Part shown: piece by piece, positions 11,291 to 17,416 of the stretch
Numbering within the stretch: position 1 is the first letter of the stretch
Layout: every line of letters starts with the position of its first letter
Assembly (NCBI GenBank): GCA_947594085.1
Contig: CANQEB010000010.1
Location: 1 to 20,425 of the forward strand
DNA length: 20,425 nt
Source of the DNA: an uncultured Lachnospiraceae bacterium
GTDB lineage: Bacteria > Bacillota > Clostridia > Lachnospirales > Lachnospiraceae
Direction: 5' to 3'
The notes under the pieces: model-generated
What the model was told of the DNA's origin: nothing
The model's database searches: none
What the model saw: the letters and a program-made list of their open reading frames with translations, nothing else
Position numbers and translations under genes: made by a program

Positions 11291-12301
11291 ATGAAGATTC
11301 TTCTGATAGGCGGTACTGGTACGATCAGCATGGCGATCACGCGCAGGCTGGCGGAGCGCGGCGAGGAGCTTTACCTTCTGAACCGCGGGACACGCAGCGC
11401 GGAGTTGCCGGAGAATGTGAACACGATCGTCGCGGATATCAGCGATGAGGAGGAGACGGCACGTAAGTTGTCCGGAATGAAATTCGACGCGGTCTGCGAG
11501 TTCATCGGCTTTGTGCCGGAGCAGGTGGAGCGCGATTATCGGCTTTTTAAAGACAAGACGGAGCAGTATATTTACATCAGTTCCGCATCGGCTTACCACA
11601 AGCCGTCCCGATCCTATCTCATCAACGAGGGGACGGCGCTTGCGAATCCATACTGGCAGTATTCGCGGGACAAGATCGCCTGTGAGGACTTTCTCATGAA
11701 GATGTACCGGGAAAACGGCTTCCCGGTGACGATTGTCCGCCCGAGTCATACCTACGACGAGCGTTCCGTGCCGCTGGGTGTGCATGGAAAGAACGGAAGC
11801 TGGCAGGTGATCCGGCGCATGCTGGACGGCAAGCCGGTCATCATTCACGGAGATGGTTCATCCCTTTGGACGATGACGTTCAACACGGACTTCGCGATGG
11901 GCTACTGCGGCCTGGTTGGGAATCCGCATGCGATTGGTGAGGCGTTCCAGATCATGAATGACGAGACTTTGACCTGGGACCAGATCTATCAGACGATCGC
12001 CGACGTCCTTGGCGTGGAGCTGAAAGCGTATCACGTATCTTCAGAGTTTCTCGCTGCGGTCAGCGACTATGATTTTACGGGAAGCTTGACCGGAGACAAG
12101 GCTTGCTCCGTGGTCTTTGACACGTCGAAGCTGAAGAAAGCGGTGCCGGAGTTCCGGCCGACTGTCCATTTTGAGCAGGGTGTCCGCAGGGCGATCGAGC
12201 ATATCATGGCGCATCCGGAGCTGCAGATCGAGGATCCGGAGTTCGACGCCTGGTGCGACCGTGTGATCGCGGCGTTGGAGCGTGCGAAAGCGGAGATCTA
12301 A
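11291..12301 (+). CDS. NAD-dependent epimerase/dehydratase-like protein (extended SDR family)
   Basis: 336 residues. The N-terminal nucleotide-binding motif GGTGTIS (7-13) and beta-alpha-beta pattern mark a Rossmann fold. The catalytic region has SSASAYHKP (97-105) and YSRDK (Y124, K128), the YxxxK pair of SDR enzymes. Later segments (IVRPSHTYD, GDGSSLWTMTFNTDFA) resemble the atypical/extended SDRs that include plant CSP41-like and nucleotide-sugar epimerase-like proteins. The substrate cannot be told from the sequence. ATG at 11291 is preceded by GGGAGG (11278-11283); an upstream in-frame ATG at 11276 would overlap that site. It begins 26 nt after ilvA and is probably cotranscribed, ending at a hairpin at 12329. 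Confidence 0.85.
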   Translation: MKILLIGGTGTISMAITRRLAERGEELYLLNRGTRSAELPENVNTIVADISDEEETARKLSGMKFDAVCEFIGFVPEQVERDYRLFKDKTEQYIYISSASAYHKPSRSYLINEGTALANPYWQYSRDKIACEDFLMKMYRENGFPVTIVRPSHTYDERSVPLGVHGKNGSWQVIRRMLDGKPVIIHGDGSSLWTMTFNTDFAMGYCGLVGNPHAIGEAFQIMNDETLTWDQIYQTIADVLGVELKAYHVSSEFLAAVSDYDFTGSLTGDKACSVVFDTSKLKKAVPEFRPTVHFEQGVRRAIEHIMAHPELQIEDPEFDAWCDRVIAALERAKAEI

Positions 12302-12328
12302 AGGATTCTCTACGAAAACTTTCAAAAG

Positions 12329-12364
12329 AGCGGATAGGCGTGAGAACCTGTCCGCTTATTTTGA
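12329..12364 (+). terminator. Hairpin / terminator-like element, copy A
   Basis: AGCGGATAGG (12329-12338) and CCTGTCCGCT (12347-12356) pair over 10 bp with one G-T, followed by TATTTTG. It lies 27 nt after the epimerase-like gene and probably ends its transcript. The stretch 12321-12343 is identical over 23 nt to 16358-16380, where a similar hairpin lies downstream of the leucine-rich repeat gene. Confidence 0.65.
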
Positions 12365-12419
12365 TAATATACAATTTGATATTAGTGTTTGTTGCTTTTG
12401 CAATAACATTCCGAACAGA

Positions 12420-12641
12420 TTAGACTGTGTGCTGATCCTCCATCAGTTCAGTAAAAAGTTCCTCGGTGCTCCCGGTAAATACTGTACCGCCGCCGCGTTC
12501 GAGTGCTTCCATTGACGCCAATGTTTCGGCATTCGGAATTTCGTCCGGCACGGAGATTCCCTCCAAATAGGCAATAGCATACAACAGTTTGCTTTCCGGT
12601 AGCTGGTCAATAAGGGTTTTGGCAAACTCGCGGCTACTCAT
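12420..12641 (-). CDS. Small protein, paralogue of the 74-residue protein at 17506; possibly antitoxin-like
   Basis: 73 residues beginning MSSREFAKTLIDQLPESK. The reverse-strand AAAGGAAG lies about 6 nt before the ATG. It is acidic with no signal peptide or membrane segment. It is clearly related along its first 45 residues to the protein encoded at 17506-17730 (shared pattern MSxRExAKTLIDQxPxSK, then Y.xAxLxGxSxPxExPNAETL). Short proteins of this style are frequently found beside toxin genes in Clostridia, and this one follows an Rpn fragment and lies near hicB sequence, but I do not recognise a named family. The C-terminal halves of the two paralogues differ. Function unknown. Confidence 0.65.
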   Translation of the reverse strand: MSSREFAKTLIDQLPESKLLYAIAYLEGISVPDEIPNAETLASMEALERGGGTVFTGSTEELFTELMEDQHTV

Positions 12642-12714
12642 AAAACGCTTCCTTTCACGACTAAGGCAGCAACCACCAGTTGAAATGAACTTTTAAACCG
12701 CAGGCTCTTCTAGT

Positions 12715-13272
12715 TCATTTTCGCATTTCATCGATAAGCTTTCTCAGGCGTTCAATCTCTGCCTTCCGGCTGCCAATCTCCGCATCTTTGTCCGCAAGCT
12801 GCGCCCTTTGGCTGCCAATCTCCGCCTCTTTGTTCGCAAGCTGCGCCTTTTGGCTATCGATCTCCGCCTGCATCTCGTCTATCATGTACTGCACGGTATT
12901 CCGGTCAAGAATTCGTAACTCCTCTGAGAACATCCCCATCACCTTCTCCACATTCTGGCAAAGACGGTACACGTCTTCGTACATGGACATGAATTCCGGA
13001 TATCCATCAATCAGCCGGAGGATCATCCCCGGGTCATCCTGGCTGAGGAACGCAAGCCACGCGTCAGTTTCGCTTCTGATACCCCTACTATTTTGGATGT
13101 TCCAGCTGAAAATGTCAAGAGGAATAAACAAATATTTCTGCAACAGGTCGAGCTTCAAACCCGTGTCGGAACGCTGCTCAAAATAATGCAAATAATTCTC
13201 TGGAAACTCCCTGAATTCCACGGTGCTCCCCGCTATGAAGACGATCGTGTAAACCTCTTTGATCTCGTAGTA
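12715..13272 (-). pseudogene. Rpn/PD-(D/E)XK nuclease family transposase-like gene, N-terminally truncated
   Basis: The reverse strand codes continuously from about 13272 to the stop at 12715, starting YYEIKEVYTIVFIAG. Blocks typical of the recombination-promoting nuclease (Rpn) / PD-(D/E)XK transposase-like family are HYFEQRSDTGLKLDLLQKY, FIPLDIF and NTVQYMIDEMQ. The N-terminal catalytic nuclease part is absent: a stop lies at 13273-13275 and the sequence there changes into hicB. The C-terminus is a coiled coil built from a 14-residue unit repeated about 2.3 times (AQLANKEAEIGSQR, AQLADKDAEIGSRK). A GTG at 13219-13221 with GGGGAG before it could start a 168-residue protein. As a nuclease it is dead; whether the C-terminal part is expressed is open. 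Confidence 0.8.
12768..12860. repeat. Tandem 42-bp repeat in the Rpn C-terminal coiled coil
   Basis: Two full and one partial copies of a 42-bp unit (core CTGCCAATCTCCGC on the plus strand) encode successive 14-residue coiled-coil units. The copies differ at a few bases. Length variation by slippage or recombination would keep the reading frame. Confidence 0.7.
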
Positions 13273-13440
13273 TCAGCTTAATGGGAATTGATATGCAGGA
13301 TGACGGAAAAGAATTGCACCATCCCGTATTGGATGAGTGTGGAGTTTGATAAAGCAGGGCTGAACTATTCGAGGGTTTTGCAAGACGAAATCGTCAATAT
13401 GCTTGGTGAGGAGTACAGAAAGCTAACTAAATCTCTATAG
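13271..13440 (+). pseudogene. hicB remnant with internal deletion
   Basis: Aligns with 17103-17388 of the intact hicB. It starts abruptly at the junction with the Rpn fragment, keeps the segment matching codons around MGIDMQDDGKE, then jumps to TIPYWMSVE; the bases equivalent to 17146-17261 (116 bp) are missing, which shifts the frame and brings a TGA soon after. The C-terminal part (IPYWMSVEFDKAGLNYSRVLQDEIVNMLG) is well preserved in the shifted frame. One more single-base indel occurs near the end. No hicA lies upstream. It cannot make a working HicB. Confidence 0.88.
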
Positions 13441-13442
13441 CC

Positions 13443-13474
13443 AGGGGCAGCCTTCGGGGTGCTTTCCCTTTTTT
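13443..13474 (+). terminator. Terminator following the hicB remnant
   Basis: AGGG-GCAGCC / GGGTGC-TTT-CCCT forms a bulged stem around a TTCG loop, followed by a six-T run (13469-13474). It is homologous to the terminator after the intact hicB (17 identical nt, 13451-13467 and 17402-17418). It would insulate the leucine-rich repeat gene from upstream transcription. Confidence 0.75.
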
Positions 13475-13541
13475 CTATTCAGTGCATCTTGCTGACGTGT
13501 TTTGACAGGCTGCAAAGACGGTGAGTTTTGCAAAGAAGAAC

Positions 13542-13577
13542 TTGACAAAAACACATGGGGGGGGGTAAACTTATAAT
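13542..13577 (+). promoter_or_regulatory. Candidate promoter of the leucine-rich repeat gene with a G9 tract
   Basis: TTGACA is at 13542-13547. Nine G occupy 13557-13565. Two -10 candidates follow: TAAACT at 13566-13571 (18-bp spacer, 4/6 match) and TATAAT at 13572-13577 (perfect but with a 24-bp spacer). The number of G would set the spacing of either -10 relative to the -35. The leader then runs to GGGAGGAGAG before ATG 13643. Confidence 0.6.
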
Positions 13578-13642
13578 AGAGTTTTTCGGGTTTTTTTGGT
13601 TTCCCGGATCGTTCATTGCAGGAGTAAGGGAGGAGAGATTGC

Positions 13643-16237
13643 ATGAAAAGGAAAACAGCTATTGTAATGACGTTGATGTTGACAGCCGCTTTCGCGTTTG
13701 CTGACGGAGCGTCGACACTTGCGCAGGAGACGTCCCTTGATATGGCTGGGACGGAATCGGAAGAGACAGGTTATCCGGAGGACGAGATCGTTGAAGAATT
13801 GATTTTGGAGCCGGAGACGGAGGTGCATGATTTGGCGTGGACGGAAGAATCAGAGGAACAGTCTGGGCAGACAGAGCTTTCGACCGTGGCAGAAGCGGAA
13901 GATGGGCAAACGGATGCGGAGCAGCCAGAAGAGGGATTATCCATCGAAGCAATTTCTGTCGAGGATGCCCCGGTAGATCTGGACGACGTCTTGACAGACG
14001 CAGTTGTTGCAGTGTCAGACAGTACGGGAGCAGGCGAGAATACAGTGGTTGCGATTAACGAAGAAGCTTTCCCAGATACTAACTTCCGTGCGTATATAGT
14101 AGAGCAGCTTGATAAAAATGGTGATGGTAGTCTCTCGCAGGAAGAAAGAAGTGAGGTTCTGTCTATAGATGTCGAAGATAGACAGATTGCTGATCTCAAA
14201 GGAATTGAATATTTTCAGAATATTACAAGTCTGAATTGTAGCATTAATCTGCTGACGGCACTGGATGTAAGCCAGAATACAGCTTTGACACATTTGAACT
14301 GTGGTTCCAATCATATAACGAATCTGGATGTAAGTCAGAATACAGCTTTAACATATTTAGATTGCGCTGACAATCTAGTAACGGATCTGGATGTAAGCCA
14401 GAATACAGCTTTAACATATTTAGATTGCGATGACAATCTAGTAACGGATCTGGATGTAAGTCATAATGCAGCTTTGACGTATTTGGATTGTAGTTTTAAT
14501 GCGTTGGCGGATCTGAATGTAAGTCATAATACAGCCTTGACGGATTTGGTCTGTGCCTCCAATGAAATAACGGATTTGGATGTAAGTCATAATACGGTTT
14601 TGATGCATTTGAGCTGTGGTGGTAATCCTATAACGTCGTTGGATATAAGTCAAAATACAGCCTTAACGGATTTGACCTGTGCTTTCAATCAGATGACAAC
14701 GCTGGATGTAAGCCAGAATGCCGCCATGACGAAGTTGAACTGTAGTAATAATTCGATAACAACGCTAGACTTAAGTGAGAATACAGCTTTGATGCATTTG
14801 ACCTGTTCTAGCAATCATATGACGACATTAGATGTAAGACAGAATACAGGATTGACGTACTTGGACTGTAGTGATAATGAGTTAACGGCACTGGATGTAA
14901 GTCAGAATAAAGCTTTGACGTACTTGGACTGTAGTGATAATGAGTTAACGGCACTGGATGTAAGTCAGAACAAAGCTTTGACGGATTTGAATTGTGCTGT
15001 AAATCTGCTAACGGAATTGGATGTAAGTCATAATACAGCCTTGACGGATTTGAACTGTATTAACTGTTGGTTAGATACGCTGGATGTAAGCCAGAATACA
15101 GCTTTGAAGCGTTTGAGCTGTGCACTTAATTCGATAGATACGTTGGATGTAAGCCAGAATACAGCTTTGACTGAATTGTACTGTCATTATAATTCGTTGG
15201 TAGCACTGGATGTAAGCCAGAATACAGCTTTGAAGTATTTTGCAGGTGAAGGTCAGAGCAAACTTGTTTGGTTGTTTGATACGGAAAGCGGCTGGCAGCT
15301 GAATATGGCGGAACTTGTGGGGAACAGTAATCTTGGAAAGGTTACTTTCACTTCAGAAGTGCCAGAAATGAGTGCAGACGGTCTGATTGTTTTCTCGACA
15401 GATGCTGAATTTCCCAAAATGATCAGCTATGAGTATGCTTGTAATGAGGATAAGAAGCTTAGCGTTACTCTGAACTTGCAAACAGAGCCGGAACAAACTG
15501 AACAGCCAGAGCAAACTGAGCAGCCGGGGCAGACGGAAACGGAAAAGAAGCCGGAACAGCAGACTGAGAAAACGCCGGAGCAGACAGAGAAAAAGCCGGA
15601 ACAGACCGAAACAGCGCCGGAACACACAGTCCACAGCTTCGGAGAGTATACCGTTACGAAGGAGCCGACCGCACTGGAGGAAGGTGTCCAGACGCGGACT
15701 TGTACAGTCTGTGGCGTGAGCGAGAACGCGCCGCTTGCAAAGCTGCCTGCTACGATCAAACTGAATGTCTCATCCATAAAACTGAAGACGAAGCAGTCCA
15801 CCAACAAGGTTGAGGTAAGCGGACTGGCACGCGGCGATGCGGTGGCGTCCTGGGTGTCCAATAATCCTCAAATTGTAACTGTGAACTCTAACGGGAAGAT
15901 TACCGCGAGAGAGAAGAAGGGCAAAGCGACGATCACAGTTACATTAAAAAGCGGTCTTTCTAAAGATATCAAAGTGAAGGTGCAGAAAAAGGTTGTGACT
16001 TGCACGAAGATCACTCTGAACAAAAAGTCTGTGACGCTGAAAAAGGGTAAGAGTTTTATCCTGCAGCCGACTGTAACACCGCTCACCTGTATTCAGAAGG
16101 TCAAATATAAAACCTCGAATAAAACCGTCGCGACGGTGTCCGGTAAGGGAAAGATCAAGGCAAAGAAGAAAGGTAACGCTACGATTACCGTCACTGTCGG
16201 CAAAAAGAAAGTAAAATGCAAGGTGAAGGTGAAATAA
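13643..16237 (+). CDS. Secreted leucine-rich repeat protein (InlJ-like cysteine-containing repeats) with EF-hand-like loop and two BIG_2 domains
   Basis: 864 residues. Residues 1-28 are a signal peptide (MKRKTAIVMTLMLTAAFAFA...). An acidic Glu/Asp-rich linker runs to about 135. An EF-hand-like loop DKNGDGSLSQEE is at 157-168. Sixteen unbroken 21-residue repeats follow (residues 194-529), consensus LTxLxCxxNxLTxLDVSxNTA, each with a cysteine at position 6; this resembles the repeats of Listeria InlJ, whose cysteines stack as a ladder. Then an unrelated globular stretch, a Pro/Glu/Gln/Thr-rich spacer (about 613-660), a TRTCTVCG motif, and two BIG_2-type domains (about 705-785 and 786-864) with a lysine-rich end. 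No LPXTG is seen, so attachment may be charge-based or the protein is released. Likely role: binding a host or microbial ligand; inferred. ATG 13643 follows GGGAGGAGAG. Confidence 0.9.
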   Translation: MKRKTAIVMTLMLTAAFAFADGASTLAQETSLDMAGTESEETGYPEDEIVEELILEPETEVHDLAWTEESEEQSGQTELSTVAEAEDGQTDAEQPEEGLSIEAISVEDAPVDLDDVLTDAVVAVSDSTGAGENTVVAINEEAFPDTNFRAYIVEQLDKNGDGSLSQEERSEVLSIDVEDRQIADLKGIEYFQNITSLNCSINLLTALDVSQNTALTHLNCGSNHITNLDVSQNTALTYLDCADNLVTDLDVSQNTALTYLDCDDNLVTDLDVSHNAALTYLDCSFNALADLNVSHNTALTDLVCASNEITDLDVSHNTVLMHLSCGGNPITSLDISQNTALTDLTCAFNQMTTLDVSQNAAMTKLNCSNNSITTLDLSENTALMHLTCSSNHMTTLDVRQNTGLTYLDCSDNELTALDVSQNKALTYLDCSDNELTALDVSQNKALTDLNCAVNLLTELDVSHNTALTDLNCINCWLDTLDVSQNTALKRLSCALNSIDTLDVSQNTALTELYCHYNSLVALDVSQNTALKYFAGEGQSKLVWLFDTESGWQLNMAELVGNSNLGKVTFTSEVPEMSADGLIVFSTDAEFPKMISYEYACNEDKKLSVTLNLQTEPEQTEQPEQTEQPGQTETEKKPEQQTEKTPEQTEKKPEQTETAPEHTVHSFGEYTVTKEPTALEEGVQTRTCTVCGVSENAPLAKLPATIKLNVSSIKLKTKQSTNKVEVSGLARGDAVASWVSNNPQIVTVNSNGKITAREKKGKATITVTLKSGLSKDIKVKVQKKVVTCTKITLNKKSVTLKKGKSFILQPTVTPLTCIQKVKYKTSNKTVATVSGKGKIKAKKKGNATITVTVGKKKVKCKVKVK
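14222..15229 (+). repeat. Sixteen 63-bp tandem repeats encoding the LRR domain
   Basis: Sixteen in-phase units of exactly 63 bp. Units 11 (14852-14914) and 12 (14915-14977) differ by one silent base; units 3 and 4 are also very close. Others have diverged more. Unit 14 has an additional cysteine in place of the conserved asparagine (CINCWLD). Confidence 0.95.
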
Positions 16238-16673
16238 ACTTATATTTTGCAAAGAGGGTTGTCAAGAAAAAATATTTGATGTGTATTTTTGTAAAATGCT
16301 GCAAAACTGTTATTTGTAGTAATCGGAAAGCGGACTTTGTGACAATGTTGTAGCAATTTCAAAAGAGCGGATAGGCGTGACTACTTATCCGCTTTTGCAA
16401 TATTTAATATTGTACTTCTTTCATTTTCAACAGAATGTGTCATTGTAATAAAAAGAAGAGGAACCTGCACATGAAAATGGATTATTAATTTATACTACGA
16501 TATAAAGTCAATAGACGATATAACACTATTACAAGGGACTTGACTTTGAATATACAGATGCAAATATTGTAGCAAAAGGTCAGAGTAAATTGAATGATAT
16601 ATTGCCGAAAATTGCTATAGAGGTTGCATCTGGATAAAGGATTAAAGGGCGCATATTATACGCATAAAAAATG
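16238..16673. other. AT-rich gene-poor stretch between the LRR gene and hicAB
   Basis: No intact gene. It holds the hairpin element copy B (16366-16393), an inverted repeat AAAGTCAA (16504-16511) / TTGACTTT (16540-16547), and a short open frame 16524-16637 without a start codon that ends in TAA and encodes ...LDFEYTDANIVAKGQSK..., possibly the tail of a lost gene. No terminator with a T-run directly follows the LRR gene. Confidence 0.5.
16366..16396 (+). terminator. Hairpin / terminator-like element, copy B
   Basis: AGCGGATA (16366-16373) and TATCCGCT (16386-16393) form an 8-bp stem, followed by TTTG. Together with upstream AAAA it can extend by three pairs across a bulged G. It is 128 nt after the LRR stop. 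16358-16380 is identical to 12321-12343. Confidence 0.55.
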
Positions 16674-16702
16674 TTGACAAATACGTATTATATGCGTATA
16701 AT
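16655..16702. promoter_or_regulatory. Promoter of hicAB with overlapping inverted repeat, likely HicB operator
   Basis: TTGACA (16674-16679), a 17-bp spacer and TATAAT (16697-16702) form a perfect plus-strand sigma-A promoter. ATTATACGCATA (16655-16666) and TATGCGTATAAT (16691-16702) are perfect 12-bp inverted arms; the right arm covers the -10 box. A further ATACGTAT palindrome lies in the spacer. HicB proteins commonly repress their own operon, so these arms are the natural operator candidate. Confidence 0.75.
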
Positions 16703-16745
16703 ATCGATGTAACCGTAAATAATCCATTTAAGTAGGAGCAAGTAT

Positions 16746-16916
16746 ATGAAAAAAAGAGATTTAGTTAGACTTCTCGAAAAGAATGGATGGTATTTTAAGC
16801 GGAGCGGTAGCAATCATGATTTGTACACAAATGGTGATAGATGTGAAGCAATACCGAGACATTCTGAGATAAAGGAAGGACTAGCGCAATCAATCATCAA
16901 GAGGCTGGGGCTTTAG
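16746..16916 (+). CDS. hicA: HicA-type mRNA interferase toxin
   Basis: 56 residues, MKKRDLVRLLEKNGWYFKRS then GSNHDLYTNG. HicA toxins are small proteins with a double-stranded RNA binding-like fold that cleave mRNA; the catalytic histidine sits in a GSxH motif, here H24 in GSNHDLY. The C-terminal IPRHSEIKEGLAQSIIKRLGL matches the family's ending (PRHxEIKxGLxxxIxKxLGL). It is too short for many gene finders. ATG at 16746 is preceded by AGGAG about 9 nt upstream, and it begins 44 nt after the -10 box. It is followed by hicB after 58 nt. Complete and probably active. Confidence 0.93.
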   Translation: MKKRDLVRLLEKNGWYFKRSGSNHDLYTNGDRCEAIPRHSEIKEGLAQSIIKRLGL

Positions 16917-16933
16917 CCCCCAGACTTGATGAT
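16893..16933 (+). other. Large hairpin across the hicA stop codon and hicA-hicB junction
   Basis: ATCATCAAG (16893-16901) pairs with CTTGATGAT (16925-16933), 9 bp; inside, CTGGGG (16905-16910) pairs with CCCCAG (16918-16923); the 7-nt loop contains the hicA UAG. No T-run follows, so it is not a standard terminator. It could affect mRNA stability or the ratio of toxin to antitoxin. Confidence 0.7.
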
Positions 16934-16974
16934 CTGTTAAATGGGTTATTGGTAAATAAAAAAGGAGGAATACT

Positions 16975-17379
16975 ATGGAGAAAGGAGCTTACCCGATTAT
17001 CTTAAAACGGGAAGACGATGGTTATTATGTCGAAATACCGGATTTTGGTATTGGGACACAAGGCGATTCGATAGCTGAAGCTATGGAAATGGCTAGGGAT
17101 GCTATCGGTTTAATGGGAATCGATATGCAAGATGACGGAAAAGAACTGCCGAAACCGTACCACGCAGAAATTAAAACAGAAAAGGACGATATTGTTACGT
17201 TAGTGGATATTGATTTTTCTGAGTACAGAAAGAAAGTAGATAATAAAGCCGTGAAAAAAAATTGCACCATTCCGTATTGGATGAGTGTGGAGGCTGATAA
17301 AGCTGGGCTGAACTATTCGCGGATTTTACAAGACGCAATCGCCAATATGCTTGGTGTGGGCGTACAAAAAGCTAACTAA
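16975..17379 (+). CDS. hicB: HicB-type antitoxin
   Basis: 134 residues. The N-terminal part (YPIILKREDDGYYVEIPDFGIGTQGDSIAEAMEMARDAI, about 6-44) is the partly degraded RNase H-like fold of HicB that binds and blocks HicA. The C-terminal part (IPYWMSVEADKAGLNYSRILQDAIANMLG, about 98-126) looks like the ribbon-helix-helix DNA-binding type that mediates autorepression. ATG at 16975 follows a very strong AAGGAGGAA, much better than that of hicA, which would favour antitoxin excess. The pair forms a complete type II toxin-antitoxin operon ending at a UUCG-loop terminator. A damaged second copy lies 4 kb upstream. Confidence 0.94.
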   Translation: MEKGAYPIILKREDDGYYVEIPDFGIGTQGDSIAEAMEMARDAIGLMGIDMQDDGKELPKPYHAEIKTEKDDIVTLVDIDFSEYRKKVDNKAVKKNCTIPYWMSVEADKAGLNYSRILQDAIANMLGVGVQKAN

Positions 17380-17394
17380 ATCTCTATATCCAGA

Positions 17395-17416
17395 AAGGCA
17401 CCCTTCGGGGTGCTTT
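17395..17416 (+). terminator. Terminator-like hairpin after hicB
   Basis: AAGGCACCC and GGGTGCTTT form a 9-bp stem (one G-T) with a TTCG loop, 15 nt after the hicB stop. The following CCTCTC is only partly T-rich, so termination may be weak. Confidence 0.65.

Follow-up and report, generated by a model that had tools for sequence, protein, structure and literature searches.

The gene for a secreted LRR protein at 13643..16237 (+ strand) of the window, by which we mean the whole stretch of 20,425 nt that was analysed, is probably a contingency locus under a slipping G-tract promoter, and would belong to a dispersed group of such loci in the genus and the order. The promoter region begins with a perfect -35 box (TTGACA, 13542..13547). 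This is followed on the same strand by 9 nt of spacer outside the G tract (13548..13556; the nearest promoter found in another genome, G005, likewise has 9 nt here), by nine G (13557..13565), which recurrence of the layout in other genomes marks out as the proposed slipping element, and by two adjoining hexamers, TAAACT (13566..13571) and TATAAT (13572..13577). An earlier note had described nine G between a perfect TTGACA and two possible -10 boxes, ahead of a secreted repeat protein, and had placed TAAACT at 18 bp and TATAAT at 24 bp from TTGACA; the sequence confirms this description and both spacings. A homopolymer therefore lies between the -35 and -10 boxes, as at loci of the porA and tp0126 type, and the 18 bp to TAAACT are within 1-2 bp of 17 bp. 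The ATG of the LRR gene at 13643 lies 71 nt past TAAACT and is preceded by the ribosome binding site AAGGGAGGAG (13626..13635, + strand). In a promoter scan of positions 12300-17400, the site at 13542-13571 scored 10/12 matches, with one site scoring better (12/12) and two others equal. The count of such promoter-like sites over the same positions was unremarkable (12 vs 10.0 in shuffles, sd 3.9).

On the reading that we favour, G9 would form half of the spacer in a sigma-70-type promoter, TTGACA ... TAAACT, of the LRR gene. Slipped-strand mispairing would lengthen or shorten the tract in individual cells, moving the distance between the -35 and -10 boxes around the 17 bp optimum. Eight G (17 bp) would be the on state; nine G (18 bp, the length in this assembly) would be intermediate, usable and not best; ten G (19 bp) would be nearly off. 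The LRR gene would in this way work like porA or tp0126. We infer that the tract slips within a clone, that slippage alters transcription, and which of the lengths corresponds to the on state. As a prediction, phase variation at the LRR promoter is well supported by promoter anatomy and by comparison between genomes.

The translated LRR protein has 864 aa, with a signal-peptide-like start and, according to a domain search, LRR_4 repeats and C-terminal Big_2 domains; the predicted start and the LRR and Big_2 domains suggest a surface or secreted product. The LRRs are of the 21-residue InlJ type, as seen both from 63-nt direct repeat units (family D1, 14183..15301, + strand) and from a match of residues 141-478, the LRR part, to Internalin-J (3bz5, E 9e-70). 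The Listeria protein Internalin J has the same LRR domain type, and an LPXTG wall anchor is one of its features. No LPXTG was seen when the translation of the LRR protein was read by eye, and its Big_2 domains are C-terminal; because the anchor is absent from the translation, the predicted protein is InlJ-like in its LRRs only. Two diverged direct repeats flank the gene (12320-13444 and 16357-17393), with pieces that are 89-91% alike. The downstream copy contains an intact HicB-like antitoxin gene (16975-17379), of which the upstream copy has a fragment only. A small ORF at 12715-13221 (- strand) ends in 42-nt repeats coding for a coiled-coil-like tail, and its Pfam match is weak and below the cut-off. 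We also considered whether the tract might be a general feature of the LRR family. Eighteen regions with LRR relatives were fetched, 14 of them with a recognisable start; upstream of these 14 other LRR genes there was no run of at least 6 G or C (for two of them, less than 80 nt of upstream sequence was present), and the idea was rejected.

The layout recurs in related genomes. Within the genus, TTGACAN{2,22}G7 was found in 17/47 genomes (57 overlapping rows at 33 places; 6 rows for the reversed control), and a relaxed -35 box followed by seven or more G was found in 22/47 genomes (39 rows; control 0). The pattern TTGACA-N-G8+-TAnnnT was present in 33/397 genomes of the family (47 rows) and 20/196 genomes of the order (26 rows), vs no rows for the reversed pattern in either sample. 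These two samples overlap, leaving 68 distinct tract-promoter rows. In a phylum-wide sample only 2/249 genomes had the layout, one of them the genome studied here, and the device is therefore concentrated in this order. Among the matches listed for named genomes were spirochaetes, Alphaproteobacteria, Bacilli, Saccharibacteria and others, many of them from animal guts; the scan was run without control or denominator, and some of these matches will be due to chance. A search of a phage collection with three phage loci gave no match, and a search of viral contigs for further copies of two phage sites returned only the source loci, plus L103 and L107. In one genus genome, G006, a different type of tract promoter is present in multiple copies, with five near-identical sites (C38, C63, C84, C142 and C148), mostly TTGTGACTnn-G8 or G9-TATAAT. 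Related tract promoters with spacers of 15-16 bp were observed in the named genomes (L139, L141, L143, L210 and L218), at least three of them followed by an inverted repeat, and these are possibly a different, fixed promoter type.

The tract layout is enriched before predicted secreted proteins. Secreted-looking proteins were assigned by a simple hydropathy rule of our own. In the order, 60 sites were examined, of which 5 had no gene call, and by this rule 39 of the 55 genes behind tract promoters were secreted-looking, vs 4 of 24 behind ordinary promoters (an earlier, smaller ordinary-promoter control gave 4/16). The corresponding figures for the named genomes (118 sites) were 65/96 vs 1/13.

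Spacer lengths were compared between ordinary and tract promoters. The 148 rows of ordinary TTGACA-TATAAT promoters had spacers of 17 bp in 79 cases, 16 bp in 17, 18 bp in 17, 19 bp in 2 and 20 bp in 9, with 24 elsewhere. This set spans 12-24 bp in three genus genomes, two of which have many sites in common, and is partly made up of chance matches (15 rows for the reversed control vs 179 in those three genomes). The spacers of the 68 tract promoters were 13 bp (1), 14 (6), 15 (2), 16 (9), 17 (7), 18 (13), 19 (21) and 20 bp (9), and their G counts were 8 (14), 9 (23), 10 (21) and 11 (10). The distribution is not centred on 17 bp, with 43/68 tract promoters at 18-20 bp, which is explained in part by the minimum of eight G in the search pattern pushing lengths upward. 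Scatter of this kind would be expected from a slipping spacer, but the G8 minimum does not fully explain the bias towards 18-20 bp.

Moreover, G counts differ within several of the related pairs listed. The window has G9 and its G005 counterpart, from a different related species, G10 (80% identity over 66 nt). The second tract promoter of this genome, on contig C98, has G8 plus A, and its relative in G005 (C46) has G10 (92% over 556 nt). Counts of G11 and G9 were found in L087/L088 (87% over 672 nt) and again in L074/L075 (75% over 537 nt, the second with one extra base before the tract). Within a single genome, L040 and L041 have G9 and G10 and are 98% identical over 121 nt, after which the downstream DNA diverges. 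These two sites lie at a contig end (G016:C4) and a contig start (G016:C5), with common upstream and unlike downstream DNA, as if one promoter faced two alternatives in the population. Equal counts were seen in two of the pairs listed, L084/L085 (G9, 94% over 532 nt) and L036/L046 (G8, 80% over 407 nt). A pair of phage contigs, L108/L303, has G9 and G15 between 1500 nt upstream and 590 nt downstream that align without gaps; the site may not be a promoter, judging from its putative -10 box (TACCAT) and a downstream gene 293 nt away. A difference between L093 and L302 was set aside, the tract of L302 having T residues within it.

The run might instead be a fixed promoter element, either a regulator site or a spacer favoured by RNA polymerase, whose length is not a switch. 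The related pairs of equal length speak for this, as does the strand bias of the run: in the same 200 family genomes, 25 rows with G on the coding strand were found in 17 genomes, vs 0 rows with C (Fisher 1.1e-5 on genomes). However, tracts of 8 to 11 G and spacers of 13 to 20 bp in the 68 rows are a poor fit to a fixed element, differences of 1 or 2 G separate several related pairs, and a relative in G034 has no tract. In that relative TGCAAAGAA..CTTGACA is kept and is followed by a mixed, purine-rich spacer of 17 nt and then TAATAT, which would make it a locked form of the promoter. We therefore regard a fixed element as unlikely.

The strand bias itself extends beyond this question. In the genus, a search with C7 and no -10 requirement gave 10 rows at 7 places in 6/47 genomes (control 3 rows); the C version is rare, not absent. 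As a regular form of the cassette it was rejected (0/200 family genomes). A C run would shift the spacing equally well, and so distance alone does not account for the missing C runs; coding-strand G beside the -10 box may act on the polymerase, on the form of the DNA or on slippage. We give roughly even credence to a wider proposal, namely that a standard switch cassette, in which TTGACA is followed by about 9 nt, a run of G on the coding strand and an adjoining -10 box, serves the order as a scattered promoter phasome for secreted proteins, and that, given its G polarity, the run has a role beyond spacing, for example via RNA polymerase, DNA form or slippage rate.

Alternatively, the locus might be explained by coincidence, with a G run falling by chance close to a promoter-like TTGACA, or by an artefact of a fragmented assembly. 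Apart from G9 at 13557-13565, no run of G or C in the window exceeds 5, and the G run alone is within chance expectation: the G7 word has 3 overlapping matches in the window vs 1.61 expected, a count reached in 22/100 shuffles, and G9 is not in excess genome-wide (5 matches vs about 9 expected, a first-order estimate from window composition). An excess of G runs as such was accordingly rejected on the shuffles and the genome-wide count. The source assembly is also fragmentary (2.4 Mb in 319 contigs, 71% complete). The placement of the run behind TTGACA, however, is beyond chance. This genome has 2 sites with TTGACAN{2,22}G7 (reversed-pattern control 0), and the second, on C98, has a near-equal layout in which one A separates the tract from TATCAT. 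In addition, controls gave 0 in samples of 397, 196 and 47 genomes, against the layout in 33, 20 and 22, and the layout is enriched before secreted genes. Coincidence or artefact is thus quite improbable. Two other G9 runs of the genome (C32 and C154) have no TTGACA within 2-22 nt upstream; the one on C32 precedes a gene for a secreted protein by about 280 nt, and the one on C154 precedes a helicase-like gene by about 50 nt. The promoter region of the window had no match in a search against plasmids.

The gene behind the C98 tract promoter is split into pieces, and one piece carries G9 within a Flg_new repeat; the relative of this gene in G005 is a 702-aa Big_2 protein. A tract promoter and a coding G9 in one secreted-looking gene (L048, G000:C98, 510-2561) would be a possible double switch. 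Another coding G9 (L001, G000:C3, 1501-1509) stands shortly after the signal-peptide-like start of a secreted-looking FctA/DUF7601 protein and is a candidate translational switch.

The -10 box that operates here is likely to be TAAACT rather than TATAAT, since the box adjoining the tract is the usual one and G005 keeps TAAACT without TATAAT. In a genus search with no -10 requirement, TAnnnT directly followed the tract at 22/33 sites, with about 0.5 expected (1 in 64); at one of the 22 (L016), TTGACA lies at a distance of 31 nt, which is too great for it to pair with TAnnnT. The nearest promoter found (G005:C19) stands before an LRR gene resembling this one; in it TTGACA is followed by 9 nt, G10 and TAAACT, and TATAAT is missing from the place corresponding to 13572-13577 of the window. 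TAAACT has 4/6 consensus letters, and TATAAT is probably unused with the TTGACA at 13542-13547. The suggestion of the earlier note that the perfect TATAAT, which adjoins TAAACT, is the better -10 box at 24 bp, and that loss of G turns the gene on through it, is very hard to sustain and was rejected, as a spacing of 17 bp would require the loss of about seven of the nine G, the usual box adjoins the tract and G005 does not keep TATAAT.

What remains of the phase-variable promoter proposed in that note is the candidate itself, which is upheld by a layout more frequent than its reversed control, by enrichment before secreted genes and by G counts that differ between related loci; the part in which G loss serves TATAAT falls away. 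Set against the slipping reading are the 14 tract-free LRR genes, the two pairs with equal counts, the lack of a G9 excess, the four of six consensus letters in TAAACT, the bias of tract promoters towards 18-20 bp and the missing C runs.

The spacer-length mechanism is established for tp0126 and porA, as far as the available text of the source describes them (PMC7864442). In tp0126, an OmpW homologue of Treponema pallidum, a poly-G lies between the -35 and -10 boxes and transcription is best at a distance of 17 nt (PMC7864442). The position of the poly-G and its place before a surface-protein gene are the same here; tp0126 differs in phylum and in the experimental nature of its evidence, ours being drawn from sequence (PMC7864442). 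The -10 box adjoins the tract in our promoters, a feature not stated for tp0126 in the sections available (PMC7864442). Spacing set by a poly-G between the -10 and -35 boxes likewise controls expression of porA in Neisseria meningitidis (PMC7864442), a single well-studied locus of a pathogen, in contrast to a dispersed set in a gut-type order. For HPT_37 of Propionibacterium acnes a homopolymer between -10 and -35 was inferred, and expression differs between strains; there, in the portion of the paper available, the run is of 5 or 7 C and its length changes are read as slow accumulation, not active switching (PMC4746626). In Bifidobacterium breve, slippage of G runs affects the sortase-dependent pilus, a surface structure of this gut commensal, although those tracts are described in the available text as lying inside coding sequence and causing frameshifts, whereas here the tract is in a promoter spacer (PMC9187656).

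The gene content of this genome suggests a Lachnospiraceae-like organism. Among the papers listed by searches of the open-licence PubMed Central literature, none showed such a promoter for Lachnospiraceae or gut Clostridia. The kind of mechanism is already known, and it is the spread across an order and the G polarity that may be new. Promoters with a slipping homopolymer have been described mainly in a small number of pathogens. If the slipping reading is true, an order of gut bacteria carries many such promoters before secreted proteins. The restriction to G raises a testable question, that of what these tracts do besides setting distance. Moreover, on/off diversity within populations would then be readable from ordinary metagenome reads, via G counts at named promoters.
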